Of a stretch of 64,000 nt of DNA, positions 331 through 53,390 are shown in pieces. Every line of letters begins with the position of its first letter. The stretch's first letter is position 1. Under the pieces are notes generated by a model. It was not told where the DNA came from. It did not search any database and saw only the letters and a program-made list of their open reading frames with translations. The DNA lies in NCBI GenBank assembly GCA_037043015.1, contig CM073322.1:33191364-33255363 (forward strand), in the 5' to 3' direction. Source of the stretch: Bryum argenteum. Lineage: Eukaryota > Streptophyta > Bryopsida > Bryales > Bryaceae. The translations under genes and the position numbers were made by a program.

Positions 331-3310
331 AATCGAATCGGTTTTCTTGGATTTTTAGGGGTTAATTTATTCATTTTTTTCCACAATTTTACAATTTTCT
401 TAATATAGAAATTATCATTTGATAGTTTGATTAATGTCAAACTTTGCTTAAAATTGATAGTAATTTAAAGACTTCATTTTATTTTATTTTTGTCATTCAT
501 ATTGATGAAACAAAAATAACTTTGATAACCTTAGTGAATACATTATATCTATAACACTCTTACAATCCTTTCATGCTGTACATTTAAGTGGATTTAATAT
601 TGAGTCGAGTCTAGCATAATATATAGGTAACAACTGAAAGACATGTAATTATTTTTCAAGTTTTACATTATATGAAAATTATACGCATGCAATATCATAT
701 ATAATGTTAGGAATGATATCAATGAAGACGTTGCATATTGTAAAATGATAATATAATGAACGATACTCCAGACAGCTTTATAGTCAACATAACGATGCGA
801 ATTATATACACCATGTTGCTTGACAAACGTGTCAAACTTTCAACACCGCTTAAATGCAACTTTCACTCAACAATGTTGTTACCAGTGCAACATTTTTAAA
901 ACATTAAATTTGTAAAAGAAAGTAGTCATGCAAATTAATCAAATTTCTTTAAACAATATAGTGTTAAATTTTGGAGTGCTTGGAGGATGTGGTTGTAGTA
1001 TTCATATTTTGAATATTTTAGGACTATTTTAGGTTTTTTAATTTTATTGGATAGATATTATATCATATACGCGATAAAGTATCAAGTCTTTGCCAAATTG
1101 AATTCGCTATGGGTGATGTTTACTAGCGGGTTGGTAATTCAAAATAAAATTCTAGAGTTCTTTATTTTAAAAAGGTTAATTAGGTCAACAATCTTATATT
1201 CTCTTTTTAGATATGTTCGAGTGCTTCCTCGAGTTTCTTGACGCGCACCTCCTATTGATTATCTTCTTCCTCTACCCCGATAACATGTGTATGATTGTTT
1301 GTCATGATGCCTTGTGTAAATTTTAAAAGAGCGACTCGACCAAAAAAGAGTCAAGTTGTTTCTATAAAGGATGTGAGATTTTTACGTGCACTATCATCCA
1401 CATTGCCATCATTTTTGCAAGTGGACTTACTGAACTCTGCATCGGATTTAGCTCTTTCTTTATTGATAAATCTTTTGGACATTTAAACTGTAAGCTTTTG
1501 CAGTATTCTCATTTTATTTTGCTCCTCATGGTTGAAATGAAAATTATTGTTTGCTTCTTTATTTAGTATCTTTCTCGATGTTGATTATTGTGTGCAGTTA
1601 TTCCGTGAGTTTACAGGTCAATATATCTTCTCCACACCTCCCCTTCTAGATTTGTGCCAATCGTTGAAAATAATTAGAGTTAACCTTAATGATAGTTCTT
1701 ACATTGTAAAGGATTGCATTTCTTATGTTGATGCAGGCTTCATGTCTTTCTTTTACACAAACAAATGCAACATCTTGATGATTAGAATGTTGTTTTAATC
1801 CCAAAAGTTTAAGCTTTATTTTTTAAATGAGACTTTTAAACGCATCTACATCTAAAGATAATTGATGGATCTTTAGGCAAACTCCTTCTCTTGATGACTC
1901 TTTTTAACATTTGTCTCTAGTGACACCAATAAGTGTAATTGTTTGGCTATAACAATAAACATTCTTAGCAATGCAAGACACTGATTTTTTATTTGTATTA
2001 TAAATTTTATCCTGACAAATAATCATACATGAGTTTGGTAATTTTTGAATTCAATTTCTTACATTTATCCACTCATAAGAATATGAGCAATTGTTTGAAT
2101 AAAAAGACCCGAATTCCGTTTCTCCTTAAACAACTAATAATAAGTTCATTGTTATAAAAATATTCGTTAAAAGAAATGAATTCTTTTTCGTTTTTTTTAG
2201 GATACATAAAAGTGCATAATTCTATTTTATTCATCAATTCCCAGCAATTTGAATTGCAATATAAAATTTAATGTTATCACCATTAAAATTTAAGCTAAGA
2301 ATTATATTTTTTTGATGTTATTAGAATAATGATTATATTATTGATAATGTAGGATACCCAAATAATCATAAAGTTTAGATATATCTAGTTCTTATGCTTC
2401 ATATGTCTAATAAAACCATGTAAATTGAGACTCATATTACTGTCTACTTATGTAAATAGGTCCATTAGTAAATAAAAGATAGTAAGATAAGATTGGAAGT
2501 TAAACTTCAAATGTATTCAAGAAAACAATCAAAAGTTATTAAAGATCCAATTTTAAATGAGATGATGTGCCAAGAGAAATGAATTGAGTAAATAAGAGGC
2601 ATCAAAAATAAAAACTTAATGAAAAATTCAAATTTACAAATTTGAATTTTAAAGATAAAAAGTCAAAAAATTGATGAGAAGAAGACTTTCTCTTATATGA
2701 CAACAAAAATATGACTTTAAAAACACTTTGTTGGATGTCATGCGTACTTAAATAAAATGGGTGTCACGCAAATATTAGATGACCGTTAGAACTTAATTTC
2801 TTCTAATCCTAATTATAAATAACTGTATTTTAAATATATTTATTTGCATTGGTTAAAAAATTTCATTATTGGTCCATGTTTTTTTTACGATCTCTTTTTC
2901 TGTATATTTACAATTAATTTCATTCTCTTAATAGATTTTGCATGCCTCTTGACAAGATATTTATATCTTAAATATATGTTAATTATTCTTTATTCATGTA
3001 CATAAGTAATAATTAGTTCCACTTCCATACTTAATAATCTAATAATTCAAATGTTTGGAGTTCTTCTTTTGTTTGAGGAATATTAATGCTTGGTGTTGTC
3101 ATTTTGAAAAATGAGAAGATAGAGATATATTATTTTTTTTACAGAACCTTCAGTCAATAGCTAGAATCGTATGTAGCAAACTAAATTATAAAATAGAAAG
3201 CTAGTATATATTGGGTTTCATACTTCATTATAAACCGAAATTGAGTTGGAAGTAAGAGTATATTTTTAATTGTAATGTAAGTAAAAGGATTTTTCAATAT
3301 TAAATATATA
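331..3310. other. AT-rich intergenic DNA, no gene recognised
   Basis: Only short open frames occur here, of 60-85 codons, for example near 1047, 1295 and 1547. None shows a recognisable domain. The stretch is rich in A/T runs and looks like decayed repeat DNA. Confidence 0.6.
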
Positions 3311-4791: not shown

Positions 4792-7700
4792 ATGATGGAA
4801 AACAATACTAAAGAAACTCATGTCGCAATCGGAGACATCCCAGGAGGTGATATCTTGTTCAATAGTTCAATAGGTTCACGATTACTGCGGGCGGCACGAG
4901 CGAGACAACTACATGATGGATTAAATGAGATATGCAAATCTCAACAAAATAGTAGGGTAGAATTGCTTTCCGGTACGGGAGCGGTGGTGGGCATGGCGTT
5001 TATGGACAATGCATTCAAAAGTGGCATGGAATTGAACGGAATGAGATTGTTTCCTCTCGAGGGTGGCGATGACGTGTCACTCATGTAGATGATGAATTAC
5101 ACTGGACCGGAGATGTAGTTGGAGAACGATTAGGATTGTCTAGGGGACAGACGATCCGTTGGGACCGCTCTTTGGTACGTGTAGTGGCTTTGGATTCCAA
5201 TATTCTACACGCACGAGGTGAAGACGGATCTCAAATGCCACATGTACCGATGATGACTCCAATATTTGATTTCCATGAGGAGTTTCACACACCAAGCTCC
5301 AATGAGACATCACAAAGAAGTAGTCAAGCTTCAAATCCCGTACATGAAAATTCACCATTTTCCCAGCCTCCTTCTAACAACATCCGAGATCTACCACATG
5401 TAGATGGGCTGGCATTTGTAAGACAAACGCGTCGACGGTATTCTATGCAGAATCGGACAAGTCGAGTCGCAAGGGAGAGAAGACCAACTGATGGTGCACA
5501 AGCAAAAGTAACATTGATAAGCGTGCAAGATGCAATAGCAAAAGGTGGATGCAAGAGAAATTGTTTAACAAATATTCCGGCAAGGTACATCTTGGACGTG
5601 TGGTATAATGCATGGGGGTCTATGTATTCAATCCGGAGTACATGGGTGAGGCAGATGTTGGTTTCATTCTATACACAAACCAATGGAAATCGTAGAGATA
5701 AGTTTGTGACAAAGTTGGACGGCAAAGAGGTTTGCAATGCATGCTACGCTGTAGCGGTTGGATATTCACAACGGCGTTTCAAGGACTTGAAAAAAAGATT
5801 GTTTGATATATGGTAGGGTGACAGCTATTCACGGTAATACCCTTTCAGATCCAGTTAGAGAGAGTACTAGAATGTCTGCTGCCGAGGCATGCTTTAAGTG
5901 CTTTGTGGATGAAGCCGGTTGTCCTCAACCCCACCGATCCATTCGACGCAAGAGTGACAAGGAAGTCCTGCCGCTTATTCTTCTCCCCATGAACACAGTA
6001 AAATCTGATGTATTCAATTACGTGAACGAGGAGGTGAAGAGAATTTGCAACGGCGAAACCATATCCATGAGCTCATTTCGGAGGATGTGGCGCCTAAGGT
6101 ATCCCCATGTCCAAGTACCCCCATTCTCTAGGTTCTCAAAATGTTATCATTGTTGGGAGTACAAATGTGCCATGGAAGGGACAACCAATGCCGATGCCAA
6201 GATAAGGATTAAAGAGGTGTTCATGTTACATTTGCTCAATCAAATGGAGGAACGTAGACATTATTGGATATTCAAGAGGTCTTGTTATATCAACCCTGAG
6301 ATGTACATGTGTATCATAGTAGATGGCATGGATCAGAATACAACCATGATACCCGGATACGCTGGACCGTGAAGAATATCGAAAGCACCGGTTCGTGAAG
6401 ACCCATCTATGCGGGGCCTTGGTGCATGGGATTGGATTGTACTGTGATGTGTGGTTCGGAGCTCACCACAAGCATGATAGCAACCAAGTCGTGAGCACAT
6501 TATTACATGTGATAGGGGACGTATTACGGAGGAAGGGATTCTTGCCACCAACATTACGCATCCAAGCGGACAACTGCACACGCGAAAACAAAAATATTTA
6601 TATGTTCGCAATGTGTGCAACTTTGGTTGGATTGGGATTTTTCCAGGAAGTGGAACTATCCTTCCTCATCGTGGGTCATACGCACGAAGATATCGATCAA
6701 CGGTTTAGTTGTATCTCAAACACCTTGAAGAGGTCAGACGTGAACTCTTTAAAGGAAATGTTTACTCTCATTGAACGGGGAACGTCCCCCACGGAGGCAT
6801 TCGTAAGCGTACGACTATTAGAGAATGTATGGGATTGGAAGAAGTTCGTAACTCCGCACCTATTGACGGGATCAGATTCATTGGTTGGCATTACATTTCC
6901 ACACCACATGAGATTCTATTCTAGCAATCGGGAGGGTGCTTGTAAGGTCCGGGTTCAACATAAGCACTATTGCAAGGATGCTTGGGGACCGGAGAGAGGA
7001 GATCAAACTTTGAGATCCATCCCGAATAGGGTCGACCGACCCGATTTCGCAACTTTATATGCAGCGGATGAGCGGGAGCTCAAGGCGTTGGACGATTTTA
7101 TTGCGTACAAAGATAGGTGTATTCAAAGATTGCAATACGTGGAAGTCAACCGTGATGCAAAACATGAGGCACAGAGATTGAAACAATATTTAGCAGAGTT
7201 TCCAAAAAAAGACCGCAAGGCCGATCACGAGACATCACCGTTTTGGCCATCCTATGAGTCCAACGCCCAACCTTCAGGATGCTTCTCTTCGATACCGAGG
7301 GAGAATACTATTGCTGAAACTCGCGAGATAACCGTTGTTGATCAGATTGTAGACATGCTCCCGAGTGCAGAGGCTCGTGGATACTTTGGGCCACGAAGGG
7401 AGAGACCATCAAATCAAGCACTGCATACTGCACGACGAACTAGTCGACATTGCGTCTACGAAGAAATCTCAGTACGAGACCAAGAAGGAGGTAGCAACGA
7501 TCTGTTTCCATCATTTAATCCCGATACTGACATCAATACTGGTCAATTTGTTGCATTGAGTGTTGTTCGAGAGGAGGTAGAAGCAGGCATACCCTTTTAT
7601 TTAGGAAAGGTGATTGAAGAGGGGAAAAACTCATGGAGATTAAAGATAAAAGTATGTTGGTATTGCCCTATTATGAGAGAAGGGTTCGTTGAAGAACCGG

Positions 7701-7990
7701 GGTCCACCAGACAACGCTATGCGAATTGCATGGAGTCCTCGTGGCAGCCATCTGGTGAGAGACACAGTTGGGTACCGAAGGAGGCGTGTATCTTTTCATG
7801 GTTTGACGAACAACCCGTATCGGATAATGTCGTTCAACCGTCGGAGAAGCGCATAGTACACGGAGTGCAGGTAGAGAAGAGAGTTTGTATTCCTCAATCC
7901 ACAAAGGCACACATTCTGGAATATATAGCCATGCAAACGGAAGCTATTGACGACGAACGCTTACAAGCAGCCTTAAATACCAAGGAGTAG
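4792..7990 (+). pseudogene. DUF7869-type protein, frame-broken
   Basis: Four consecutive open segments (4792-5088, 5136-5816, 5803-6372, 6395-7990) read as one protein if small indels near 5080, 5810 and 6352 are allowed for. Middle segments have cysteine clusters, for example CKCFVDEAG-like and KCYHCWEYKC. The last segment (531 codons) has the string GHTHEDIDQRFS, preceded by QADNCTRENKN and, across the break, VDGMDQ. From memory this signature is typical of proteins annotated DUF7869 in plants and some animals, whose function is unknown. The ordered acidic residues (D in VDGMDQ, D in QADN, E/D in HTHEDID) resemble an RNase H-fold DDE transposase, but that is my inference. The stop is at 7988-7990. 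An intron explanation was considered, but the decayed copy at 16.2 kb aligns across the 6352 break with a one-base offset, which favours an indel. Confidence 0.7.
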
Positions 7991-19117: not shown

Positions 19118-20630
19118 CAAGATATAGGGCAATATTCAATGCAACCATTGGAATACAACTAATACTAAAACCAAATCTACATTAAAATAATTATAATTGC
19201 TCACACCCATACAACTAAGTTGAAATTTTCTCCATATTGCGACATAGACTAATTCATTTCAAAGAATACAAGCCTAGAATGTAACTTGAACATGCATGTG
19301 TACAATAAATCCTAGAGTCAAACTAATAGTAATTTGTGATTATAATATTTGATTATGAGGAATTGGGAAATCCAAACTGATACCAATGTCCAATGCAATT
19401 TTGAGCAAAAGTACTTCATTGCAATAAACTTGCGACATATTTGTTGCAACTCTTGGTACTAACAAACACATTGCTGCAAGCTTCTTTAAAAAAGCAATTA
19501 CCTTAATGCAAATCCTTGTGATATTAGTCTAAAATGCACTTAAGTAGTGCAACTCTTCTTATCAACTAGCCAAATGAGACCCATAACCATAAAATCAAAG
19601 AGATTGGTTGACCCTCCCGCATGAGCATAACGCCATTCAAAGTTACTGCTCTATAAAAGTCATTACAAACTATATTGATGTTAAAAATACATCAACATTG
19701 TGTACTCTACATAGTTCAAATTTAGGGCTTCAAAAAACAAGCTCTCATATACCTCAGTGACCATGAGTTCTCTCAAACTTCACTTTTGTAACACTTCAAG
19801 AATAATTTTGTTATGTATTTTTTTAACACCAATTAATATATTAATAAATTGACATAAAAATACATACAATTATATTCTTCATATGACCAAGTTGTCTTTA
19901 TACAACCTATTGGTACATTAATGAAGGAAAAAGAAAACAGAGCCAATTTCTGCTCTGAGAGTAATTCTTAGGGTTGCTTAACACTCTCGACCATGAAGAT
20001 TGACCATGGCCTTCTAAATCTTGTGATTGGAGAGTAAAGTGCTCATGGTCAGAGAGAATGGCATCACAGCGGCTCTAAGCTCCGCATGAACTGAGAGAAG
20101 GGCGTGATTCGGGAGGAAGCAAGACGTTTGATGCGTGTTCGTATTGCCTGTTCATGGTTGCAAGATTGCGTGAGCGAGGCGGCTGGGAAGTCTTGTAACG
20201 TAAGGAACGCAAGAACAGATCTCTCGTGAACTGGATCGGTGTTGGCTTGTGTCTTGATGTGGAGCAGTGTTGGCTCCTTTCAACTCATCTGCAGGCTGGG
20301 CTGCGGCACAAGTGAGATCCAGGTGCTTCCTCCCGCTCTTTCTTGCCCCGATCTTAGTTCACCGCGGCCGCACATCCAACTGTTCACCGCATGCTTTTTT
20401 AACCTCAACCATTAGTCTGTAACCGTTCGTAGCATACTCTTGAATCTTGTAGCACGCCCAGTTTGCTAGATCTGAAACACTAAAACCTAGCTCTAAATTA
20501 TCCCTGCTAGATAGTAGCACCCAACAGATTAACCTAGATCCGGAATTTCTGGATCACTACTCAACGATAGCCCCTCTCGAGACTTCACCGACACATAAGA
20601 GGACGACACATTACTGTTGCCCCGACCAAG
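19118..20630. other. no gene; right part may be a 5' leader
   Basis: 19118-19920 shows nothing. From about 19930 the GC content rises and stays higher to the ORF1-like gene, so 19930-20630 may be the untranslated leader of that element. This is an inference from composition only. Confidence 0.4.
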
Positions 20631-20981
20631 TTTTTGTATCTGGACGGCTACCTGCACAGTGCCACTAAGACGAAACACTTCACCAACCTCATTCAAGGTA
20701 CGCATCTAACACACTCTTTCAATTGTGTTGCCATGTTGTTGTTCCTCCTTATAAACTCCCTGTGTAGATCGAGCACCCCATGTAATGCTTGGAGGTTCCT
20801 AACCTCCAAGAGGGATAATGCTTCATCTCTCATGACATATGTTCACCACTGCAATCCTATGCTATCCTCATTACATGCCATACTCTATCAACATTGTCTT
20901 TTTGACTATACTTGCATTCTACAAAATTCAATTCACAAACGCAACATAACTTTGCCCTACTACATGACGAATTGTGTACAG

Positions 20982-22812
20982 ATGGGTGACCTCCGCTCCA
21001 ACGCTTCGCTGACTCTAAATGAGATAGACATGGAGGACGCAATCCACACCTACAAACGAGACTCTCCCATCACCAACAAATCTGCACACAAGAAGGCAAG
21101 AGCATCTATCAGCAAAGTTATGCTCCACACAGAATTCTGGTATGGTTTTCCTGTAATGGAGGCCTTAGCATACGAAGCTGGAATTCCTCCATTCAGCCCG
21201 ACAAAATCATTGGATGACCTAATCAGAGCGGGTTACATCGAAAGCGAAGCCCGAGACCTGCAAAAGGGGCGCATGTCATTTCCAAGGGTGGTACAGAAGC
21301 TCTGGCCAATGGCAAGACCAGATCACATTGAGGGACAACATTTCAACATAACGCAACTGCCATTTGACATTGAGGTAAACTCAAGCACAAACCTTTCCTT
21401 AGACTACCACATTCTCCTGCAATTTGAGAAACCCTCCACCCCGTTCAGTCAAGACCAGATCATGAAAAAAATCCTCTTGCGATTATCAGACATGAATATT
21501 TCCCTAGGTGATGACATAGGAGAACCTCTTGCAATCCTTTGCCATGGCCCAAAATCTGATAGGGTTTGGTCTGGAATGGCCAAAGTCCACCTGCAAAAAC
21601 CAGAAACAGACGGAATAGCATTACTGGAAGGTACAAGAGTTTTTGCCATTGCTCTAGACCATGATTTCCTCACCATTGCTAAAATTGCTAAATCCTACGA
21701 TCCTCTAGCCCCTAGTAACCTCTTGACCATAAAGGTACAAACAGAAAACATCAAAGGTTTAGAACCTCACCATTTGTTTCAAACTTTGGTAGAAGAGAGT
21801 TTCAATAGAGGCCATGAGTATGAGATTACCCAAGTGCAGAAAAACCCTAAAGAAACATATGGGTGGCTCACGACCACATCACCTGAACAAGTAGCAAAAG
21901 TAGGCAGGAACAAAATCCCGATCCTTGGTGAGCTCCTGTCTCCGATTGTCCCCACCGACGATCAACTGTCTAGAGAGGATGTCATGAAACGAAATTGCTT
22001 AGTACTCATTGCCAAAGGATTGAATCTCACAAAACCTATAGAACACACTACAGATCTAGCCTAAAAGCCCACATAGGACCCAACAATGTATCCTCAGTTT
22101 TCTATCCCAGAGCCAAGCATACAGTACACACCGGAGTTGCCAATATAGAGTGTTTGAATGCTACAGTCTACAAACAATTTTTACGAAAATCCGTGCGACT
22201 CAACGGGAAGTGGATAGAATTCCAGCCTCATCCTAATAGTCTTAACGGAAGTGCACGACCGGATGATGCTACCTTGAAGAGGCTAGGATTTGCGACATTG
22301 ATGATCTTGCTATGGCTAACACGGTGGAAGCTCTCAAGAACGCTCCCAACATCAAGCTCCGGCCGCTCACGAAGAAAGACATTACGGCAATTGTAGAAGA
22401 AGTGGTCACCAAGGAGAACAACAAGCTTAGACAGGAGTTCAAAGCTGACATGACTACACTGCACATCGATATGCGCAAAGAAGCCAATGACTATGCTGAT
22501 CAGAAGCATCTTGAGATTCAAACAGCACTCACAAACCTCAAGCAAGTTTTCGGCCAGAGCATGCTCGTATTGGAGAATATCATCCGCCCGGCTCTTCCGG
22601 CTCGAACCGTCGAACGCGGCGAAACGACAAGTGACACACAACGCCATCGCCCACCACTCCAAGCGACCTCGCAAGTACGGCGTTCATCACAGCGCAACTT
22701 CGAAAGCGGCTCTTCATCTCCACTGCACATGTTTGAAGTTGGCGCATGGAGCCTCGCCGGGAGCGCGCATTTACAAGGAACAACATGGCACCCAACAACA
22801 AACGAAAGGTGA
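20982..22812 (+). pseudogene. ORF1-like retroelement protein, frame-broken
   Basis: The main open frame runs to 22064. I prefer the ATG at 20982, because the upstream extension (from 20634) looks like leader sequence. The reading continues after one-base shifts near 22045 and 22285, ending at 22812. The second part has a compact module ending in LNGKWIEFQPHP. The last part begins MANTVEALKN and is rich in charged heptad-like sequence, suggesting a coiled coil. Order and position (same strand, upstream of an endonuclease/RT gene) suit a LINE ORF1 nucleic-acid-binding protein. I cannot name the family. It may belong to the LINE that follows or to a different element, because its base composition differs sharply. 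Confidence 0.5.
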
Positions 22813-22939
22813 AAAACGGAAACAAAAAACGAGCTTTCAAAAAAAATGTAGGAAGAACAGCCGAGAGCTGCAAATTGCATGCACAATCCGGCCTCACTTA
22901 GACATCATATCTGATGATGATGGGTTGATGGAGACGTGT

Positions 22940-24489
22940 GGAGACACCTGCCCTTGTCATCATCATTACTTATGTTTTTTATTTTTTCTTTTTTTATTGC
23001 TATTACTCCTGTCGAGCTAATCATTGCTTCTTCTACGTTTTAAATATACTATTAGGATATTTTTATAAATATATATACTTATTAAACATATTTCAATTAC
23101 ATTTATTCCCTTGTGCATGCCTTTATGTTCTCTTCATTCTCTTCTCTTTTTCTATTTTTTCATTACTTGACACCAAACTTTCTTATACAAAAACAAAAAA
23201 GTATATCTTCTTACACAACAAAACAACTACTCAAAACCCAATAATAAAAACAAATCTCACACACTTCTCAAAAAATAAAACAACTCTTAGACAAATTCTA
23301 TTTACAAAAACAATCTTCTTATCAAACCATTATACACACACTACTCTCACAAACCTCCCATTCACAACTATACACATCTTACTCTCAAAAACTACATATC
23401 CAAAGACATATACACAACATACAAAGACAAATATTCCTAAACATATGCATACAAAAACCACTCTACAAAACGCATCGCCATCACTAACTCTATATTCTTT
23501 GTTCCTCTCAATAGACACAAGACACAAACGCATAACCTCTTCGCAACGCAAACATTCCAAGGAAATAACAACAAACAACAATAAACTAACAACAAAGTAT
23601 AAACACTATTATATCACAAACATCAACATAACATTATCCCAAATACAATTAATTAGTGGATATTGGCTCATTGTCACAACGAACAAATTCTTTAGACACG
23701 TCGACCTCGAAAGAAGGTTGAAATTTACACCAAATTATCTTTCCCAAAACATAGAAAACACAACGCCATCACCAACTCTATCAACTTTATTACTCTCATT
23801 ACCTTGCCTTGCTTATAAATCAATAATCCAAATAACAAATAAATTGCACAAAGACCGCTTCACCAATGGCCACAAAATACTAGAAAACACAACTATCTAT
23901 AAACAATTACTTATCAACATTTCGAACCTATAAAAGACAGAAATGATGTACACACACTTATCTTTTAGTCACTTTAAAATATTACGAAAGACCAAGACAT
24001 TATATAGACAATTTTGCAATAAATTTTTCAAATACTTCCTAATTATTTCTTGTTGGATATTACATAGTACATCAAAAATACAAAGAGCTTTATCTCAAGT
24101 TGTTTTTGTAAAGAACCATACTATTGATCATAACAATATGATATTAAATACAAGAGTGTTTCAATTTTTCAAAAGTGATCATTTACTAATCATCTCAACC
24201 AAATCCACTTCAAAAACTATAAGTTCTCTAATTATTAAATTCTCAAACATGACACATTGCAATGCTTCATGTATATTTAGTTTTGATATCTTAAATAAAG
24301 AATCACTACAAACAAACACAATTGGAATAAAACTCTTTAAAATTACCAACAATCAAAGAGATGTAACTTTTCGTACAAGGTACAATGTACAATCTTGCTT
24401 GTTTGATGAAAAAACGCCTCTAGAGTATATTAAACATATCTACCAACCACAAGTATCATTATTAAACATTATATAAACATAAAAATAGT
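22940..24489. other. T-rich then A/C-rich tract with spurious open frames
   Basis: A pyrimidine-rich run at about 22960-23170 passes into a G-poor, A/C-rich stretch. Long open frames here (22938-23933 and 23943-24476) read low-complexity Lys/Thr/Asn/Leu sequence and are best explained by base composition. It may be the 5' untranslated part of the LINE. Confidence 0.5.
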
Positions 24490-24532
24490 ATGTATTTTTC
24501 CCCTACACAAAACAATAAGCACACAAATTATC

Positions 24533-25115
24533 AAGCTCGGCCTTTTCACCCCACAAACAATAAACATTTGCATCACACAATAAATCCTATGATGCGGCCA
24601 AAGTCCAAACCCACTAAATTAACACCAAACACTAAACACACAAACATTCAAGCTCGGCCTCCCGGCCTCGCCGATAAGAACATTACAAAAATAATAACAG
24701 AAATTAAAACAATAATAGCCAACACTACACCCACTCTAAAAGAAAAAAAAAACCCAACTTATTCGATCTCAAATACTAGCCAAAATAAACACAAAAGCTC
24801 CAAAATATCCCATCACAAGACAACATTTGCACCACAAAAAATATCCCAAGTTACCCAAAAACAAACAAACAAACCCTACACACAACTTTACAAAATATCG
24901 AGCTCGGCCTCCCGGCCTCGCCTATAAGCTAAATTTAATAAACTCATGCAAAATACACGTACTCTCTTCGCCTCAAAAACTAAACAAAAAGCCAAAACAC
25001 CCCATTACAAATCACCACTCAAAGCATACTAAAAATTCCAAACCAATCCCATCAAACCCCACTCAAAACACCATACTCACAAACAAACAAACCGAGCGTC
25101 CTGGACTTGCCTATG
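24533..25115 (+). repeat. GC-rich 26-bp motif repeated four times in the LINE 5' region
   Basis: The string 'gctcggcctcccggcctcgc' occurs at about 24652 and 24902, with shorter or diverged forms at about 24535 and 25093. Three copies run into a TATAAG- or TATGAA-like end. The copies lie in different reading frames, so the conservation is at DNA level. They stand out as G-containing islands in an otherwise G-poor tract. Confidence 0.7.
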
Positions 25116-25249
25116 AACCAACTGACCAAAATACAACTTATAAAACACACACAAACAACACTACATCCACAAAAATATCAAAAACATCAACCCACACTAC
25201 TAAAACATATCACTACACATACAAAGACAAATATCACTTACCAAAATGT

Positions 25250-25276
25250 GGAGATGTCGAAACTAACCCAGGGCCC
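25250..25276 (+). other. 2A-like ribosome-skipping motif
   Basis: The frame reads CGDVETNPGP followed by Met, an exact match to the known consensus D(V/I)ExNPGP. In other systems this consensus makes the ribosome release the upstream chain at the Gly-Pro junction. It lies before the endonuclease, so it would separate an N-terminal product from the catalytic polyprotein. 2A sequences at this place are known from trypanosome and some animal non-LTR elements. Confidence 0.85.
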
Positions 25277-25917
25277 ATGCCGAATGTACTCAAAACACAC
25301 CCAGCCGTCCACAAACGAAGATGCAAGAATTACTTCATACCATGCACAATTCGACTACACCCTGAGTACCAGCATTTATCAACACAATTTGCGCCATGTC
25401 TCATAAATACGCACCCAAAACATCCAGAAGCACAAATAAAATACCCATATCTCACAAACTACGTCCGGGAAAACTCTCATCATCCAGCACCACATATACT
25501 ATACGCTCTTATCACAACAATAAACCCATCACCCGAAACATGCAACCACATCCTTGAACATCCGAGTAATCCAAATTGGACCACTATATTACTTAACAAA
25601 ATGGCCACACTTCAAAACCCGCCGGAAAGACATCTTAACAACCCACATCCATATACACAATTCAAAAACACAAACTCTAATCTAATAAACCCTCCCAACA
25701 CCATACACAAACAATTATATGAATTCATTCAACAAAACAATACACCACCCAATCAAGAACAATTAAAGAACAAATTCCCATTTTTACCCGACAACCTACT
25801 TGCAGAAGTCCTAAAATTCAACGAACCCCTTCCCGAATATTCTCATCCCCCAAAGACCAAATACGCCTCCCCCCACAAAATACAACACCAATCACTACTA
25901 ACCATAAAACACATATA

Positions 25918-26690
25918 ATCACATGGAATGCCTCATCGCTCAACACCGCCCTCCCAAATCTACACGAACTAATCACTAACACTCCAACAAGCCCGGCAAT
26001 AATTGCAATACAAGAAACTAAACTAACTGCCACAAAATCTACCAAATATCTTCAAAATTTATTCCCTGATCACAAAATGATCTTCAATAATACACACGCA
26101 CTAACACGATGCATGCAACAACGAATGGAATATACACCCACAAGAGGAGGCCTTTTGATATTTATAAACAACAAATACACATATCCAGGTAATATTACCA
26201 AAATCCCAACTTCTGTCGCAATATCACCATACTTACAAATCATAAAAATAAAAAACGAACCCCTACAACCATGGTTACTCATACACATGTATATGCCGTC
26301 ACATCCAGAGGACACCCCTCACTTAGAAACAATTCAACAACAAATAACACAACAGATTATAGCACATCCTAACCACATTCAAATATTATGTGGGGATTTT
26401 AATAGAGACATAGCTCTCATAGGTCGTCAACACGAATTAAACACATCCCCACCTCAAATAGAAGACATAGATTGGCGCGCATTCACAGATTCGCTACAAC
26501 TAACATATATACCAACAAACACTATATATTCAAGACAAGGAGGACAAAATTACAACGAATCTAGCCTAATAGATGGATTTTTCATAAAAACCCGTAATAA
26601 TAATTTATACTCATCACAAACTATTACAGAACATAACCTAAACTCAGATCATTCTCCAATTACTCTTCAAATACCTCCAAACACACTACT
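25918..26690 (+). other. APE-type endonuclease domain of the LINE
   Basis: Motifs in order: ITWNASSL (Asn), AIQETKL (Glu), ILCGDFNRD (Asp/Asn), SSLIDGFF, and NSDHSPITL at the end (Asp/His). These are the expected catalytic positions of exonuclease III-like LINE nucleases, and all are kept in this copy. Confidence 0.85.
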
Positions 26691-27559
26691 CGCAAGACCC
26701 CCACAAAAACCAACAACCAAACCAATAAGGATTTTAAATCCTATACCACAAGAAAACCTTGATAAATTTAAAACAATATTTTACGAAGACAACTCAAGCG
26801 AAATCAACGACCTCACCTCTTTTCTCTCAAATACTCAACTAACAAATACACAATGGCAAACGGCATGCGAAAAACTAGATCACTTAATTCAAAAAACATC
26901 CAAGTTAATCGAAAGTACTTGCACTGCACCACCTTTGCCTACATTAACACCACGCACATCTGAACAAGGGGGGTTTCTACCAAGAAAACTCCAAAAACAA
27001 TGGAAAAAACACCTAACCACATACCATTTAATTCGCAAGGCTATATACATTACAAAAAACACCCCCAATTGGCAGAACCACCCCATAATAGAAGAACTAA
27101 GCAAACATACACACACAGACATCCCACCACTCCCGCCACAAACCAATAATCCACAAGAATGGATCCAAACCCTAGCAGAAATAGCAAAAACATCAAAAAA
27201 ACAAGCTCAAAAAATCACTACAAAATTCACTCAAACATGCATCAAGAAAGCTATCACGAAATATAGGCAGTTATACGACAAAAGTCCAAAAAAAATAAAT
27301 AAAAAAGTCTTCAAATATCAAGATACCCCACCACTTGATTGTATCACAGATAGATATAACAACCTCCTAACCAACCCCAAAGACATTGCACTTGAAATAC
27401 ATACACAACAATCACAAAGTAATAGACCCACAGTCCCAACATGCTATCACCAAATTTCAACACCCAACACTATGTATATGTAGCGTGAGACAATACCCAT
27501 GGCACGATTTAGACGGCTTTATAATAGATAAAAGGGGTAATCCACAAACCCCCTTACAT

Positions 27560-28325
27560 AAATACTTCAACGATGAAATATATGGTCAATGTTTAAAACA
27601 ATTATCCAATAATAAAGCACCTGGACCGGACAGAATCCCTAATTCTATTTTAAAAAACATGCCTGACAACTTTCATAAACTACTATCCATGTTTTTTCAC
27701 CACTCCTACAAACAACGACAAATACCATCATCATGGAAACTAAGCCTAACCATACTACTATACAAAAAAAGGGGATCCATCAGTACTACCAAACCACAGC
27801 CTATAGCGTTAGCCAATACAATCTACAAACTCTTCACGAGTACTCTCACACTTATACTTTCAACATACGGCGAACATCACCAAATACTACATGACAGCCA
27901 AGAAGGCTTCCGAGCAGAAAGAAGCACAAACAGACAAATACAGATTCATCATCAGACCTTTAGAGGACGAAAACTCACAAAACAAGACATCTACATATTA
28001 TATATAGATTTTAAAAACGCATTCGGCTCTCTAGACCATGCCGACTACTCGCATAATGAAAGACCTTGGTTACCACTGTAGACGCAGTAACACTTGTTGG
28101 TAACATATATTCAAACTCCTCCACAATATTCACAGGCGAATATTTCGGCAAGACAGAACCAATTTCAATACAAAGAGGAACCATTCAAGGCGACACATTA
28201 AGCCCTTACCTATTTCTTATATTTTTAGAACCACTACTCAGATGGCTACAAAGAGGGAATAATGGCTATACATTTGGCACATCAAAAATAAACATTACAA
28301 ATTGCCGCGATACGCAGACGATTTA
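27560..28325 (+). other. reverse transcriptase domain of the LINE, broken
   Basis: NNKAPGPDRIPNSIL and QEGFRAERSTNRQ precede motif A (YIDFKNAFGSLDH), motif B (RGTIQGDTLSPYLF) and motif C (RYADDLAG, YADD at 28311-28322). Motifs A, B and C are in three different frames, and a stop follows soon after YADD. Confidence 0.9.
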
Positions 28326-30159
28326 GCAGGGACTTGCAAACACCCTCCAATCCATAAAAACTCAAATATACAAAATAGATAAATTACAGCCAATGGGCGG
28401 TATGGACCTCGGTAGCAAAAAAATGTGCAATTACAGGGTGTCCAAACAAATCCAAAATAAAGCCTGATGAATTCAAGGAAAAAATACAGCAACACCACAT
28501 CACCTATAGAAACCAAGCAATTCCTATTCTTCACCAAAACGAACCTTATGTCTACCTTGGTATCCACATGGTACCCTCCCTAAAATGGAAAATTCAAACG
28601 CACATTGCGACAAACAAACTTATCGACCAATGTAAACAACTCGCAAAATGTCCCGCAACAATCAAACAAAAAATTAACATGGTTGATACAGTCATCAGAG
28701 CAGGGATCGCATATAGCTTCTATGCAGTCCCATTCTCATTACCAACCATCAAAAAACTTGACAAAAAAATTATAGGGATCCAAAAAACAATATGTGGCCT
28801 CCCAAAATGCACAGCGAATGTGATTACCCAACTCCCCCATAAACTCTTTGGTCTTCAAGCATTCTCACTAAAAAATGCATATCTACGATGCATCGGCGAA
28901 CAACTGAGAAATGCACTTAATGATCAAGGCAGACTAGGCAACATTTACAATGGCCTTATTCAACACATAACTTCCAAACACGGTGGCGCCGAAAACATCC
29001 CTAGATTAAAAGCCTCCGATTGTATAAGCTCCCCCATATCAAGAACACTATTTCTTCTCAAACAAGATGGTGGTATACATCTAAAAAGTACCAATGGCGA
29101 CTTCCAATTATACAAAACTGAACTAGAACGAGAGTGGATAGAACAAGCTACAATTGAACTCCCACACCTCAACCCGGAACTATCAATCAAGCTATTACAC
29201 AAGCTTTTAATACACAATATCTACAAAATCAAACACATCTCTCTCCCAAACGGCACAAGCCTCATGTCACCAACCGACTTTGCAACCTACCATAAACCAC
29301 CAACTAGACTTGAGAAAAGTGCGCTAGAAATAGCTGAAAAACTATTTTGCCAAACTAAATGCAACCCAAATTGCCCTAATACCTGCACTCAACACCCACT
29401 GGCCCGTACACTCAAACCAATATACATCTCAGACAATTTTGACCTAGTCCCAAGAAATTTAAACAACCGACCACAACCTACTACCCACCAAGCTACTCAC
29501 CAAATAAGTCCACCACCAAACATAAAAAACAACCCTCTTGAATATCCCATAAATACAATATTAAATCACAAAATAGTAACTACAAAAGACAAATACAAAA
29601 TACCTAAAACCTACAACACATACTTATGCAAATGGCATCACAACAACATCACATACCATAAATGGCTCCAACAGAGAGACCTATTCCCCTTAAATTATCC
29701 AACAGTCGTCTCACACAATATTGAACTACTTAAGGATTACTACACCAAATCGCAACATGCTCACTATCGAAACATGATCAACACTCACTTCATACAAGCA
29801 CAACTTAAGGATACCAGGTTCATACCACCACCATCAATTACCCCACTTACGCAAATACACTTTGCGAATGTAATCCGAAAGAGACATTATTACTAACAAA
29901 ACCACCATACAAATAAATACCGAAATAGCTCACCTATACGAAGACAATGGTCGATACCTCACCACCATACCCATTAACAGATTACAGTGGCTATGGCAAC
30001 AATTTAATAAATACTCAAACAACTCACACGGACTAATGCCATACACACAAACCTTCGAAACAGAAATAATATGGTTATACCAAAGATACAAAGCTCAATC
30101 CTCCAAGAAAAACCCGAAACTAACACCCCACCACACCCTTCCAACGAACATTCTTGATC

Positions 30160-30545
30160 ATATCACCACTAACCTCCAAATCAATCACTCATACTTCTCA
30201 TCACCAATAACGTGTTCCACTAAAATAACAGAATATTTCTCCACCTTCTCCCGAGACAAAATCTTTGGATCCCGAGGCAACGCTTTTGAATATAAATGGA
30301 CAGGCATAGGGTATGCGCATACACATAATCCCGAAACAACCCAACAAGCCATCCATTGGGCAAGATTAGCGGCCAAACACGACTCCAGTACAATTACCAT
30401 AATAGTCACCCCCGACCCAAACTGGTACCAAAACCCAACCCCATATAGTGGACCATTCCCAAATACACATATAATAACCCATTTTACCGCGGACTCAATC
30501 ACATACGAAATCCCAGCACCCCCACAAAAATACAAACCAACAACC
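30160..30545 (+). other. LINE domain of unknown function, methyltransferase-like
   Basis: Between RT and RNase H, a segment has the strings FGSRGNAFEYKWTG and AHTHNPE, then a hydrophobic strand ITIIVTPDPNWY. The pattern (FGS-x-G, an NP-x motif, then a strand and PDW-like sequence) recalls PCIF1-type N6-adenine methyltransferases, but the catalytic NPPF motif is not present as such. The assignment is tentative. Confidence 0.35.
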
Positions 30546-30825
30546 GAACCACATGCAATATCCATCATGTGCATACACCATCAAAACAATCACATTGGTA
30601 CATCAGAACAAACTAACAACATCAGAAATGCAATTGAGGCCATGGCAATCCCGCACTACTATATACAACAAGCTCCACCAACCCCATACAACACTATTGT
30701 CAAAAAAAATAAAAGATGGAATAAAATGTTATACCCCCCCACATACAAACTCTAACTCCGAACCCACATGTATACCCCCTCTACCAATGTTCGAAATCAA
30801 CCCCACTCTAAAATTTCAACCGCAA

Positions 30826-31265
30826 CACAGTTACTATACGGACGGCTCTTTCATACCACCTAAAGAAGCCGAAGATGGACATTGGAAAAAAGAAAAAGCT
30901 GGATACGGCATCTACAATTCCACAAAACCGTACATGCAAATATCGAAAAGACTTCCTGGACTTCAAACATGCTTTCGTGCAGAATTGATGGCTATACATA
31001 CAACCCTACACCTAATTAACACCAAATACCCAAATGAACCGGCTTATATCTTCACGGATTGTATAAATTGCCTATATAACCTAAATACTCACATATTACA
31101 CCCATCCACACACCAAAGTCATCCTGACATAACCATCCTAACAGAAATGGTTGAAATATTACAAAACCGTATCCAACCCACTATATTCCACAAAGTTAAA
31201 GTGCACATTAACATCACTGGCAATGAAGAAGCAGACAAACTTGCAAAAGCCGGAGCCACCAAGCA
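30826..31265 (+). other. RNase H domain of the LINE
   Basis: YYTDGSF (Asp), FRAELMAIH (Glu), YIFTDCIN (Asp) and NEEADKLAKAGA (Glu/Asp) are the four acidic motifs of type 1 RNase H, in order and well spaced. Confidence 0.85.
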
Positions 31266-31619
31266 ATATTCGGTAGCCACAAAACCCCACGACCCGCACA
31301 CACTACACACGTTCTACTACCGTAAATATGAATGGCCAGGTCCCTTAACACGCCCAGACAAGGGCCCGGTCAGATGCCTTCAAACATACCTACACAAACA
31401 AGACTACGACAACAACCTTACAATACTCGCTGACCAATTCCCCAATACCAACAAATGGACAACAAACCCGGATATTGACAATGAACTATCAAATGCCTAC
31501 TGGCTAAACCCCTTAATTACAGACTCACAAAAAACAATTATTCTAAAGCTACGACCGCCAATACATGGGGAACGCAAGGAAACAACTATTCTTCGGTAGA
31601 GAACGGTTCCCCTCAATAA

Positions 31620-32080
31620 CTTGCTCTATATGTAACTCCACGGACGCTGACACATGGCTACACGCACTACTTAAATGTGGCCACCACCACATACACGCCA
31701 TTAGAATCAAAAGACATAACAAAGCCGTATGGGAACTAAGAAAATTAATTCTCTCATCACAAAAGTCACGATGTTATATCCTCATGAACGCAGGTACATT
31801 TAATAACAACCCCCAAGAAAATACAGTCCCTACATGGCTATTACAATGCGAATGTACACAACAAAGATGTCATTGCAACGCTAGATTCAAACCGGATATA
31901 CTATGCATTAAAGGTCTACCACACAAAAACGACCCACCAACACACCCATCAGACAACCTCACACTTCAATTTATAGAATTCACATATTGTAACGATAGAT
32001 TCTCTCAAGAAACAATTAATAACAAAACTGACAAATATCAAACACTTCTTGATAATCTCCGTAATCTAGGATGGAAAGTA
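31620..32080 (+). other. CCHC zinc finger and restriction-like endonuclease of the LINE
   Basis: CSIC...H....C (C-x2-C-x9-H-x4-C) is followed by RIKRHNKAVW, then RFKPDILCI, then FIEFTYCNDRF, and a tail KYQTLLDNLRNLGW. The order (zinc finger, R-H-N/D, [RK]PD, E-x-[KT], K-x-Y helix) is that of the C-terminal nuclease of R2-like and Dualen-like elements. The usual E-x-K lysine appears as Thr here. Confidence 0.65.
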
Positions 32081-32092
32081 GACCCCTCATAG

Positions 32093-32757
32093 TCATCACA
32101 ATGGTGCTAGAGGCACAACACACAAACCATCAATGAAACTTCTTGCACAAAAATTTAATTTATCAGAAACATGCATAAAACGCACATTCCATGAAATAAA
32201 TACCATTGCCATTCAACACGCCGGTTCAATTATTTTACACAAAAGAAAAATTGAGAACAACCAAACAATTCCCACAATAATGTAACAATAAAAGGAGGAG
32301 GGCGTGAGAATTGGTGTAAACCACTTCCCACAAGTATAGTCACGCTTGTCTCGTAGAGATGGGACGGGGCCGATTGATTGGTACAAATTTCCTGCCTATG
32401 TATAATACACTAGCAGCACCAAGCCATGTACATCACATTAAACGCTCAAACGGATCCACCGAGTATCGAACCCGGACCGCTCATTTGTGACTCAAACATC
32501 CCTACCAATCAACCAGGAATCATGGCTTGGCGATCATACCCACGATAAAACCTTACACAAACTTAAGCAGTGTTTTGTTGACTATTTTAGGGTTACTTTT
32601 CTTTTTTCTGGCTACTATAGTGTCTAATCCCGAAAGGGGTGAGTAGTCTTGCATCAAGGTCCTTATGTCCAGTGGGCTTTAGGTCGTTGGCTTGACGAAC
32701 AGACACTCTAATCACGCCGGTCCTAAAAAAGGATTGGAGTTTTTATCTATCTATCTG
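32093..32757 (+). other. LINE 3' untranslated region and TCTA tail
   Basis: No open frame follows the stop at 32092. The last ~170 bp, from about 32590, match the end of the SINE at 53220-53390, and both end in repeated TCTA. The shared blocks include 'atagtgtc', a GGGG-rich hairpin-like part, 'tcacgccgg' and 'ggagttt'. A tRNA-like piece in reverse orientation lies inside at about 32460-32510. Confidence 0.7.
32462..32507 (-). repeat. tRNA-like promoter pair (SINE fragment or pseudo-tRNA), reverse
   Basis: On the minus strand an A-box-like TGGTAGGGATG is followed 24 nt later by a B-box-like GGTTCGATACT. Sequence around it does not fold into a full tRNA that I can confirm, so an inverted tRNA-derived SINE inserted in the LINE tail is the likeliest reading. 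Confidence 0.45.
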
Positions 32758-32861
32758 CTCATGGTCCCATTTGGATTTACACTACCTTGGAAAAAGGAGA
32801 ACGACTACTAATTTTGAGGTCCCAAAGTATGCTAAATTCTACATAGTAGATAATATTTCAA

Positions 32862-32923
32862 GGTTTCCTTGATTATAGTTGAGTTGACGCTAATACCGCG
32901 ACTCAACTACAATCAAGGAGACC
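32862..32923. repeat. 25-bp inverted repeat (hairpin)
   Basis: Arms 32862-32886 and 32899-32923 pair over 25 positions around a 12-nt loop. The three differences are all T/C or A/G changes that would still allow G-U pairs in RNA transcribed from one strand. Confidence 0.85.
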
Positions 32924-33199
32924 ATGAGGCTCAAAAATCATTGATTGGCTACTGTTCAATTATTCGAAATGAAAGGAGGAATAATGGGAGGGTAAGAGAG
33001 AGAATGATGAGGATTTATGTTAGAAAATTAAGTTTAAACTTCTCGTGGTCCAAATTCACTTCACACTACAAGAGTGATCAAGCCACTCAAAAATCCATTT
33101 TTGATTTATCATCATTACAGCTCTTGGCCAAGAGCTGTGACTATGAAAATGATTTTAATAATCTTGGTCATGGCTCCAAGTGGTCCATAGTGTAAAGGG

Positions 33200-33991
33200 A
33201 CCCTTATTGTATGAACACTTCCGTAAAATGCCACAAACAGCCGCGCAGGCATCATGGAGTGGGACGGCGGAAAGGGGTAGGAGACGAAGCAGATATCTTT
33301 GAAGCTTCAAGAAGGCCCGACTGCCCGACTGTTGACTGGTATACACGGACGGGGGGGCGGTATGTGAAGTATGTCAAAGGTGGTACCAAAGTCCAACGCC
33401 GTTGACGATCACGGCATGTATTCTCACCTGATGTTCCAATATTCTAAGCGTGAATTGCGGATATGCTACAAAACTGACAGGCAACCCATCGATGTCAACG
33501 AAAGTTGACTGATCTGCTGCTTGATTGACTCGGGACTAGTCTCCGATGGGCCACGCTCGCATGCTCCCAAGCGTTGACACTTCGTCCGATTGAAGGTTCC
33601 CGTATCTCGAAACTCGCTACCAATTGTGTATCAGGCTCTGAAAATGGTGCCAACCAAATCACGTCATGTTAATTACGGATATCGGTACCATTATTCCAGA
33701 AGTAGCATATTCAAACAGTGGCAGTTCTCAGATCTAATTCTAATCCTGAACATTTCCTGTCGCTAAACACTTGAATAATCACCTCCTTGTTGAAAAGCGT
33801 TCACAATCTGCCTCGGAATTCGGAATTAGTCACGGCGCCCCTTGACATTGGAGTACACGGAATGGACCGTGCGTGAGAGGGTGCACTACTTAATCCCATC
33901 GCAGGCTCTCACTTAATCATCAGCTAACATTCTTCCTCAGCTTGCTAGTTGCATCAACGCTCATCTGCCTTCTCGATCTTACTCAAAGACA
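33200..33991 (+). promoter_or_regulatory. upstream region of the Bet v 1-like gene
   Basis: No gene is seen in this stretch. It precedes the ATG at 33992 and should hold its promoter. I see no clear TATA box at the expected distance. Confidence 0.35.
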
Positions 33992-52470: not shown

Positions 52471-53027
52471 TTTTGGGCTTTAAGGAAGGTTAGGGTTAAA
52501 CGTAACATTTCTCTCTCTCTATATATATATAGTACATGGTAACACATTGACATTTAATTATATATATGCACTTGTTGATGGGTAGACACAAAACATATAA
52601 GTATTGTTGAACTTGGTTTAGGCTAGGTACAAGTTTTATCATGACAAGAAGCCCCCTTCTATATAATGTATTCTCCATTTTATGTAATAGGAGTAGATTT
52701 CATTGACAGCTTGCCAACGATGATTCATGTTCATAAGGACTTTCCACAATCTTTTTTTGATTTGTTCCTTAGGGTCTTCGGTAGTAATATTTATAATGTT
52801 TTGTCCTATACATGAATCTTTGATAGCAACATTCATGATGTTTTCGATAGAAGATAGAGAGGTTTGGTTTACACTACAAAAGAGAAGTTCATTGGTGAGT
52901 CAAGAATTTTTTATTTCAACCAATCACATTCCAAGAGCCTCAATTTCAACCAATCACATTTGAGTATACTCCTTAGTTTCTTGACTGCTGGACTTCTACC
53001 CTGTAGTGTAAATCAGCCAAGGCACCA
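52471..53027. other. no gene recognised
   Basis: AT-rich; a short CT/TA microsatellite lies at about 52508-52532. Confidence 0.5.
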
Positions 53028-53390
53028 CAAGCCTTGGCTTGGTGGTTGGGGCTCATGGCCCCCATTGAGGAGGTCGTGGGTTCCATTCCCCATGCCGGCG
53101 TGGTGCTCACCACTATAGTCCACCCAACTATTGTGGGGGGTTCTTGAACCTTGTTGTATGGGTACCTCAAAGTCCTTTGGGGGGATACTATGTCAAGTAT
53201 CCTCAAGGCACTAGTAACTAGGCTAGAAACTAGCGTAGTTATAGTGTCCACCCTCGAGAGGGGGAAGTAGTATTGTTCCAATTTCCCCTTGTCCGGTGGC
53301 CATCGGGATATTAGCATTACGAACGGACACTTCATTCACGCCGGCCCCTTAGGTAGGGACCGGAGTTTCTATCTATCTATCTATCTAAAT
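53028..53390 (+). mobile_element. tRNA-derived SINE sharing the LINE 3' end
   Basis: The head has an A-box-like TGGCTTGGTGG (53035-53045) and a B-box-like GGTTCCATTCC (53079-53089), 33 nt apart, the layout of a Pol III tRNA promoter. The last ~170 bp resemble the end of the LINE at 32590-32757, and both end in (TCTA)n. This is the pattern of a SINE that borrows a LINE's 3' end for mobilisation. Confidence 0.75.

Follow-up and report, generated by a model that had tools for sequence, protein, structure and literature searches.

A LINE of RandI/Dualen-like architecture with a PCIF1/CAPAM-like domain in the Bryum argenteum genome

What kind of retrotransposon occupies this 64,000-nucleotide stretch of the Bryum argenteum genome (the window), and what might a domain related to a cap methyltransferase do inside its polyprotein? 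A preliminary description made from the letters of the window had reported a plant LINE with two endonucleases, RNase H and a 2A motif. What it observed is confirmed and its interpretation is supported in part; it missed ORF1, the true 5′ end, the cap-methyltransferase-like domain and a SINE partner. From sequence comparison, we consider it rather probable that the element is a green-plant non-LTR retrotransposon of RandI/Dualen type, in which the PCIF1-like domain most likely does not methylate and instead holds a capped 5′ end or another RNA site. How LINEs achieve full-length copying and cis-preference, and how they handle their 5′ ends, is poorly understood, and a LINE with a selected-looking cap-methyltransferase fold that lacks the catalytic motif makes a model of 5′-cap recognition directly testable.

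Extent and coding capacity of the element

The features of the element and of its partner are collected in Table 1. The preliminary description had started the LINE at 24490; the flanking copies of TGCTCATGGTC and the 5′ module upstream move the start to 20051, and the interval 20051–22100 is found again upstream of ORF2 in other copies in the genome. Target duplications are present in all three LINE copies checked, and no common target was seen when the flanks of 10 distinct copies were compared. The LINE is made up of ORF1 and ORF2, a 2A-like motif, short target duplications, a tetranucleotide tail and a structured 3′ end. Several frameshifts interrupt the window copy, while relatives elsewhere in the genome are open, with a single ORF of 2941 aa that holds, in this order and in one frame, the APE, the R2-like RT, the PCIF1/CAPAM-like domain, RNase H, the zinc knuckle and the RLE motifs. 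The family appears to be large in this plant genome; relatives were also sought in viral contigs, other genome contigs and phages, where none was confirmed. The neighbouring genes in the window are CHLM, ELP1 and At3g28540-like AAA genes, as in green-plant DNA.

Table 1. Positions of the LINE, its parts and the SINE in the window
Feature	Position	Strand	Basis or detail
Target-site duplication, left	20040..20050	.	11 bp, TGCTCATGGTC
Whole LINE insertion	20051..32755	+	12,705 bp; 11-bp flanking duplication, (TATC)n tail, recurring 5′ module
ORF1 piece	20571..22064	+	~34% identity with the ORF1 sequences from two other copies
2A-like motif CGDVETNPGP	25247..25276	+	Sequence string
APE (EEP) endonuclease domain	25918..26661	+	Pfam PF03372 E 1.2e-8, PF14529 3.7e-5
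APE motifs	ITWNAS 25918-25935; IQETK 26008-26022; GDFN 26392-26403; NSDHSP 26641-26658
Reverse transcriptase and following linker	27458..29869	+	Frameshifted; RVT_1 at 27764-28045 and 28144-28257
RT motifs	A 28001-28039; B 28186-28215; YADD 28311-28328		YADD out of motif B frame
PCIF1/CAPAM-like domain	30012..30404	+	Pfam PF12237 E 1.1e-12
AHTHN where the catalytic NPPF loop would be	30315..30329	+	Sequence comparison
RNase H domain	30829..31257	+	Pfam PF00075 E 6.3e-12; motifs between 30835 and 31254
CCHC zinc knuckle	31622..31678	+	Sequence motif
Restriction-like endonuclease (RLE) motif set RHN, KPD, EFTY, K..KY, GARG	31709..32114	+	GARG in shifted frame
RLE-region strings	FKPD 31886-31897; IEFTYCNDR 31973-31999
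3′ RNA structure (conserved, with covariation) and (TATC)n tail	32616..32755	+
Target-site duplication, right	32756..32766	.	TGCTCATGGTC again
tRNA-derived SINE	53020..53386	+	LINE 3′ end shared; flanked by AAATCAGCC; tRNA-like head read by eye

The ORF1 piece matched no Pfam family at E<=1. The motif D[VI]ExNPGP is found in 11 of the 14 long copies examined (13 ten-kb loci and the window), no 2A-like motif being found in L011, L015 and L021, and in the window, L012, L017 and L018 no AUG stands ahead of it within its open frame. 2A motifs are known from the LINE L1Tc and from LINEs of sea urchin, which likewise carry D[VI]ExNPGP but belong to clades and hosts other than those of the present LINE (PMC4981915).

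Endonucleases, reverse transcriptase and class assignment

All motif strings named in the preliminary description were located in the window sequence, and they exceed chance because of the Pfam E-values obtained on pieces of the broken window copy (Exo_endo_phos 1.2e-8, RVT_1 1.8e-7, RNase_H 6.3e-12) and on the open relative L009 (RVT_1 at 2e-27); the profile search that it had suggested for EEP, RT and RNase H returned all three. PF03372/PF14529 precede RVT_1 in L009, L010 and L012, placing the APE N-terminal to the RT, and PF00075 (RNase H) lies after the RT. When the RT was compared with PDB chains by phmmer, the best R2 chain scored 118.9 bits and the best human L1 chain 75.8, with the R2 chain set 8gh6/8ibw at 67-71 bits, under human L1. 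An RT firmly in L1, the outcome named earlier as contrary to the original reading, was not what the tree returned: among reference RTs comprising human L1 (on a long branch) and three L1s of the same genome, and without RandI, Dualen or I-clade RTs, the LINE RT fell outside the L1 clade (support 97/95), and the three L1s of the same genome grouped in another clade. Human L1, found by phmmer, was not among the matches of the search with the RT-to-end profile (A3).

The claim of two endonucleases stands for the APE, by Pfam; the RLE is at present a conserved motif set with a sub-threshold R2 alignment, and it has no significant PDB match. Conserved among copies are CCHC, RHN, PD, E (13/15), K..KY and GARG, and the C-terminus aligns colinearly, below significance, with the zinc-knuckle/RLE region of R2. 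As a single sequence the RLE region gave 0 matches in the PDB, and the one row returned for a profile of the C-terminus (3g4d, E 0.76) was taken as chance. Two AlphaFold models built from window pieces alone, with mean pLDDT of 37 (C-terminus, single-sequence) and 35, were discarded, and a shuffle test on R2 fragments, biased by fragments picked with the same profile, serves as illustration only. Across ORF2, median dN/dS from pairs that are not independent was 0.066 for the RT, 0.082 for CCHC-RLE, 0.094 for RNase H, 0.106 for the PCIF1-like domain, 0.138 for EN, 0.168 for the linker and 0.258 for the region after 2A. A rival reading makes the element an APE LINE of I or L1 type that has RNase H and ends in a zinc knuckle, with no RLE; it would accommodate both the RLE without a significant PDB match and a tree without an I-clade reference. 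We regard it as very unlikely, since L1 forms a separate supported clade, R2 chains give the highest RT scores, RHN, PD, E, K..KY and GARG are conserved and colinear with R2, and among the seven regions compared only the RT shows a lower dN/dS than this C-terminal region.

The predicted architecture fits RandI/Dualen, whose RT clade lies between the RLE-only and the APE-only groups. RandI/Dualen LINEs of green algae were reportedly described by Kojima and Fujiwara in 2005, and the first Dualen report is said to have included a cysteine protease as part of Dualen; in the Pfam-scanned pieces of the present element no cysteine protease reached a meaningful score, only Peptidase_C39_2 appearing at E 0.21 and 1.9, below the cut-off. 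The algal elements are treated in PMC8226300, PMC4640811 and PMC3636483, the last two of which describe APE and RLE together in one element, plus RNase H. Like the present LINE, RandI/Dualen elements have an APE N-terminal to the RT, RNase H and an RT apart from L1; as described, they differ from it in the PCIF1-like domain, the 2A-like motif and the plant host, and in the cysteine protease, which was not found here. With R2 the element shares RT similarity beyond the palm, and a zinc knuckle, RHN, K..KY and GARG in the same order. The 3′ end of R2 is structured, as is that of the present LINE, which additionally has an APE, RNase H and a PCIF1-like domain and, unlike R2, shows no common target in the flanks of the 10 copies compared. 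In its available text, a review of land plants lists L1 and RTE as the sole LINE superfamilies and does not contain the words Dualen or RandI (PMC9033089). Plant L1 and RTE LINEs likewise have APE and RT, often with RNase H, but no RLE or PCIF1-like domain is named for them in that text (PMC9033089). Dual-endonuclease LINEs bear on the replacement of RLE by APE (PMC4640811).

The PCIF1/CAPAM-like domain

Between the RT and RNase H lies a domain resembling PCIF1/CAPAM, the cap adenosine N6-methyltransferase. A genome search with PF12237 gave 209 candidates, of which 150 were scored (best 2.4e-14), and the same search found matches in none of 14 control genomes. By phmmer the domain matched PCIF1 6irx at 1.4e-4, and its profile matched 6irx at 3.8e-4 and 6irv at 5.5e-3. 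A generic Rossmann-fold or chance match would be compatible with the 24-35% identity to a vertebrate PCIF1 fragment and with the weakening of the match to E 0.07 when the longer RT-to-end profile is used, but it is extremely improbable given that all 150 scored places lie over Pfam's curated cut-off and that, at E<=10, the domain profile matches no PDB chains other than those of PCIF1. The vertebrate fragment hit 133 places in the genome (best 1.8e-6), of which the best row and many others are element copies, and no separate host PCIF1 gene was distinguished in this search, from which an intron-split gene could escape. A limited literature search found no report of a PCIF1-bearing LINE, and earlier publication is possible. 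DIRS elements carry a Dam-like methyltransferase and are thus also retroelements with an adenine-methyltransferase-like domain, but both the methyltransferase family and the retroelement order differ.

The catalytic NPPF is absent from all 50 distinct copies examined; its position reads AH[PT][HYN] in 49 of them, and FGSxG is likewise retained in 49 of the 50. Because the catalytic loop is altered in every copy examined, the domain most likely no longer methylates. The core domain with FGSxG is common to PCIF1/CAPAM and the LINE, but in the LINE NPPF is replaced, the domain is embedded in a polyprotein, and no WW domain was matched by Pfam among the pieces scanned. Selection appears to act on the domain, whose median dN/dS differs little from the RNase H value. 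This, together with the retained FGSxG and AH pair, would be expected of a methyltransferase that is active despite its unusual AHPH loop and modifies the element's own cap or another RNA or DNA site. We judge such activity unlikely: NPPF is missing in 50 of 50 copies, it has been named as key for catalysis (PMC11345611), its Asn and Phe are the residues altered to make inactive PCIF1 (PMC10544176), and for Drosophila PCIF1, where Phe is changed to His, no cap mark was detected (PMC9479742). By analogy with the catalytically dead fly protein, the domain might instead tether the protein to transcription or chromatin and not to RNA caps, given that catalytic-dead Pcif1 regulates gene expression in Drosophila according to a title in the reference list of PMC10544176. 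This too seems improbable, as the WW domain, for which binding to the Pol II tail is reported (PMC11345611), was not found in the scanned pieces. The PCIF1-like domain is probably a repurposed, non-catalytic module that binds RNA or the cap.

The 3′ end, a proposed mechanism and the SINE partner

Strong covariation argues for the 3′ structure, with 94.9% of cells paired versus 31.5-47.0% when the structure is slid; an Rfam search of 20000-33500 gave three matches, all under the gathering score. In the mechanism that we propose, the ORF2 protein would bind the structured 3′ ends of its own RNA and of the partner SINE's RNA, the target would be nicked by one or both nucleases, reverse transcription would be primed at the (TATC)n tail, and RNase H would remove the RNA. 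The PCIF1-like domain may hold the capped 5′ end of the element RNA, serving cis-preference, translation or full-length copying, or may hold another RNA site, and the 2A-like motif would separate the upstream sequence from the enzyme polyprotein. A bolder and more tentative version, possible but on balance doubtful, is that the PCIF1 core was captured by a LINE lineage, in which it became a reader of the lineage's own capped RNA that does not methylate (or acquired a new chemistry by way of the AHPH loop), so that recognition of the 5′ end is coupled to the target-primed reverse transcription that a dual-endonuclease protein carries out.

The shared 3′ structure provides a plant LINE/SINE pair for study, in which the tRNA-derived SINE was probably mobilised by the LINE that shares its 3′ end.

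Domain content and the PCIF1-like domain

The preliminary description had read the window element as a LINE with both an APE and a restriction-like endonuclease (RLE), and all of the motif strings that it listed are found in the window sequence. Frameshifts interrupt this copy, and a Pfam scan of its separate open pieces recovered the APE endonuclease (E 1.2e-8), the RT in two frames (E 1.8e-7 and 2e-4) and RNase H (E 6.3e-12), the last open piece (31547-32089) matching no Pfam family at E≤10. An unexpected match was PF12237 PCIF1_WW (E 1.1e-12, window 30012-30404). The longest open frames among the genome copies reach 2941 aa, and the open relative L009 carries the domains in a single unbroken ORF, with its Pfam domain order repeated in L010 and L012.

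Positions of features (aa of the L009 ORF unless marked) and median dN/dS between pairs of copies (Nei-Gojobori method; dS limited to 0.15-1.6; only stop-free copies covering at least 93% of the domain)
Feature	Position	dN/dS	Copies	Pairs
2A-like motif	596-605			
Region after 2A		0.258	11	22
APE (EN)	821-1064	0.138	8	11
RT	1435-1698	0.066	10	18
RT-PCIF1 linker		0.168	29	265
PCIF1-like domain	2191-2318	0.106	34	381
RNase H	2452-2594	0.094	34	361
Zinc knuckle and RLE motifs (CCHC-RLE)	after RNase H	0.082	18	41
tRNA-derived SINE: tRNA-like head (by eye), LINE-like tail	window 53020-53386			

The PCIF1-like domain resembles the enzymatic domains in dN/dS; because pairs are non-independent and the exclusion of stop-bearing copies lowers the values, these figures serve as a comparison between domains and not as a test. 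Within the genome, all 150 scored places (209 candidates) lie above the Pfam cut-off for PF12237 (best 2.4e-14), and none of 14 control genomes matched this family. L009 alone aligns with PCIF1 (PDB chain 6irx) at 1.4e-4, and for a profile of 22 domain sequences PCIF1 chains are the only matches at E≤10 (3.8e-4 and 5.5e-3), with 6irx falling to 0.07 when the longer RT-to-end profile is used. PF12237 is described as a family of CAPAM-like methyltransferases rather than a WW domain (PMC7641849), and the catalytic motif of PCIF1 is given as NPPF (PMC11345611; PMC10544176). In both the L009 and the profile alignments, the NPPF position falls on AHPHN/AHTHN of the LINE. Among 50 distinct copies (57 covering loci, 7 being repeat views of one copy or another), NPPF occurs in none, AH[PT][HYN] in 49 and ACRN in one, while FGSxG is retained in 49, with a stop at that place in the remaining one. 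The Drosophila PCIF1 offers a parallel in that its NPPF is also altered, Phe being replaced by His; in the passages cited, cap m6Am was not detected in that fly, which the authors suggest the change could explain (PMC9479742).

Reverse transcriptase affinity and C-terminal motifs

Among PDB chains, three of R2 (9nl2, 9nl3 and 9dou, the last two identical in printed sequence across the match) match the RT at 112-119 bits, human L1 matches it at 73-76 bits, and 8gh6/8ibw, which we take to be silk-moth R2, at 67-71 bits. A maximum-likelihood tree of 16 rows separates three clades, one uniting human L1 with three L1s from this genome (97/95), one of R2 (98/94) and one of the nine element rows (100/99), with long branches flagged for human L1 and 8gh6. 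Placement in L1 or I clades had been named as counting against a RandI/Dualen assignment; in this tree of L1, R2 and element rows the element stands outside L1, and RandI/Dualen is a putative placement.

The C-terminal piece matched at all 150 scored places (573 candidates; identity 63-100%). Its motifs, C-x2-C-x9-H-x4-C, RHN, [KR]PD, EFTY, K..KY and GARG, are mostly invariant among 15 sequences, with the Glu of EFTY substituted in two and GARG variable in a few. With the RT-to-end profile, the five R2 chains shown gave further weak alignments in the right order, covering part or all of the knuckle and RHN in all five, and K..KY and GARG in 9nl3 and 9dou (-0.7 to -2.3 bits). These alignments are individually insignificant, and their weight as a sign of an R2-like knuckle and RLE rests on order and place.

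Insertion boundaries, the 3′ end and a probable partner SINE

At the 3′ boundary, ...GTTTTTATC gives way to a short (TATC)n tail, which varies in L007, and then to unrelated DNA. This comparison covers 12 rows that represent 10 distinct copies, since L003 and L013 are one copy, as are L005 and L018. TGCTCATGGTC lies directly behind the window tail and again at 20040-20050, thus delimiting an insertion of 12,705 bp (20051-32755). An 11-mer is common to the flank and any part of a 5.5-kb stretch in 41 of 2000 random flanks, and that of the window, beyond mere sharing, also adjoins the tail. Both other copies tested have duplications (13 and 15 bp), right behind the tail or a few bases away. As independent support for the 5′ boundary, 20051-22100 recurs in the genome with 43 matches in all, including C2:21469442 (96% identity), C10:15435760-15437523 (two pieces, 99%) and C1:36335984 (84%), those on contigs C2 and C10 lying ~10 kb upstream of same-orientation ORF2 parts. 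The ORF1 piece 20571-22064 shares only ~34% identity with ORF1 of the L012/L052 and L013/L053 copies, despite 89.6% and 93.3% identity in ORF2 DNA, and the 5′ modules (window 20051-24549) therefore seem to have been exchanged between subfamilies.

The final ~140 nt are kept across subfamilies (70-100% identity) and are predicted to fold into a long stem and terminal hairpin of 38 pairs, with 94.9% of 532 cells paired and both-side changes at 16 pairs. The alignment comprised 14 (12 from LINE and 2 from SINE copies) of the 21 listed stretches that exceed 110 nt. Its covariation score was 0.353, versus 0.209 in shuffles (0/500 as high) and 0.037-0.147 when slid, a control biased in favour of the structure, which derives from the same alignment; of the five measures used, that for further pair types was not above shuffles (449/500 as high). 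The final ~142 nt of the SINE share 71% identity with this 3′ end, and AAATCAGCC duplications flank the SINE. The best 40 of 2748 candidate places, those scored, are all 98-100% identical, with one additional partial match (83%). The simplest reading of these sequences is that the SINE is mobilised by the LINE. Read by eye, the 3′ untranslated region (32455-32525) also holds a tRNA-like stretch in antisense orientation, which includes a B-box-like GGTTCGATACTCGG and persists, with changes, across the compared 3′-end rows.

Domain content, dN/dS, duplications, tail and the covarying 3′ end make up the established part of the mechanism. By analogy with LINE biology, insertion would proceed by target-primed reverse transcription with 3′ recognition. 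More tentatively, APE and RLE may divide the labour, and the PCIF1-like domain may bind cap or RNA.

Translation and neighbouring genes

The 2A-like motif (definition in PMC4981915), as GD[VI]ExNPGP, is present in 11 of 14 long copies, none being found in L011, L015 and L021. Upstream of it, L009, L010, L014, L016 and L019 have an open frame of 222-605 aa that contains AUGs, and L013 likewise has AUGs; in the window copy, L012, L017, L018 and L020, the open frame of the motif lacks an AUG ahead of it. Since ORF1 and the 2A frame overlap shortly in L012, the latter may possibly be reached by frameshifting or reinitiation. L019 (minus strand) has two 2A-like motifs, which lie at nt 661 and 2176 when its reverse complement is read. 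A short GC-rich repeat unit, GAGCTCGGCCTCCCGGCCTCGCC-like, occupies window 24533-25115 upstream of the motif, with a 23-nt exact match in L019.

Genes flanking the LINE (CHLM, ELP1 and an At3g28540-like AAA protein), together with 90 LHC-family matches in the genome, indicate a green plant host, probably a land plant and not a streptophyte alga. On contigs C5, C2 and C3 of genome G000, weak matches to the chlorophyll-binding family lie in tandem arrays and may represent ELIP genes. The window further contains a gag-integrase ORF of a Copia-type LTR retrotransposon (62022-63884) and a DUF7869 ORF (6350-7990; Pfam 5.1e-52), possibly a DNA transposon protein; an ORF with the same initial residues adjoins copy L020.
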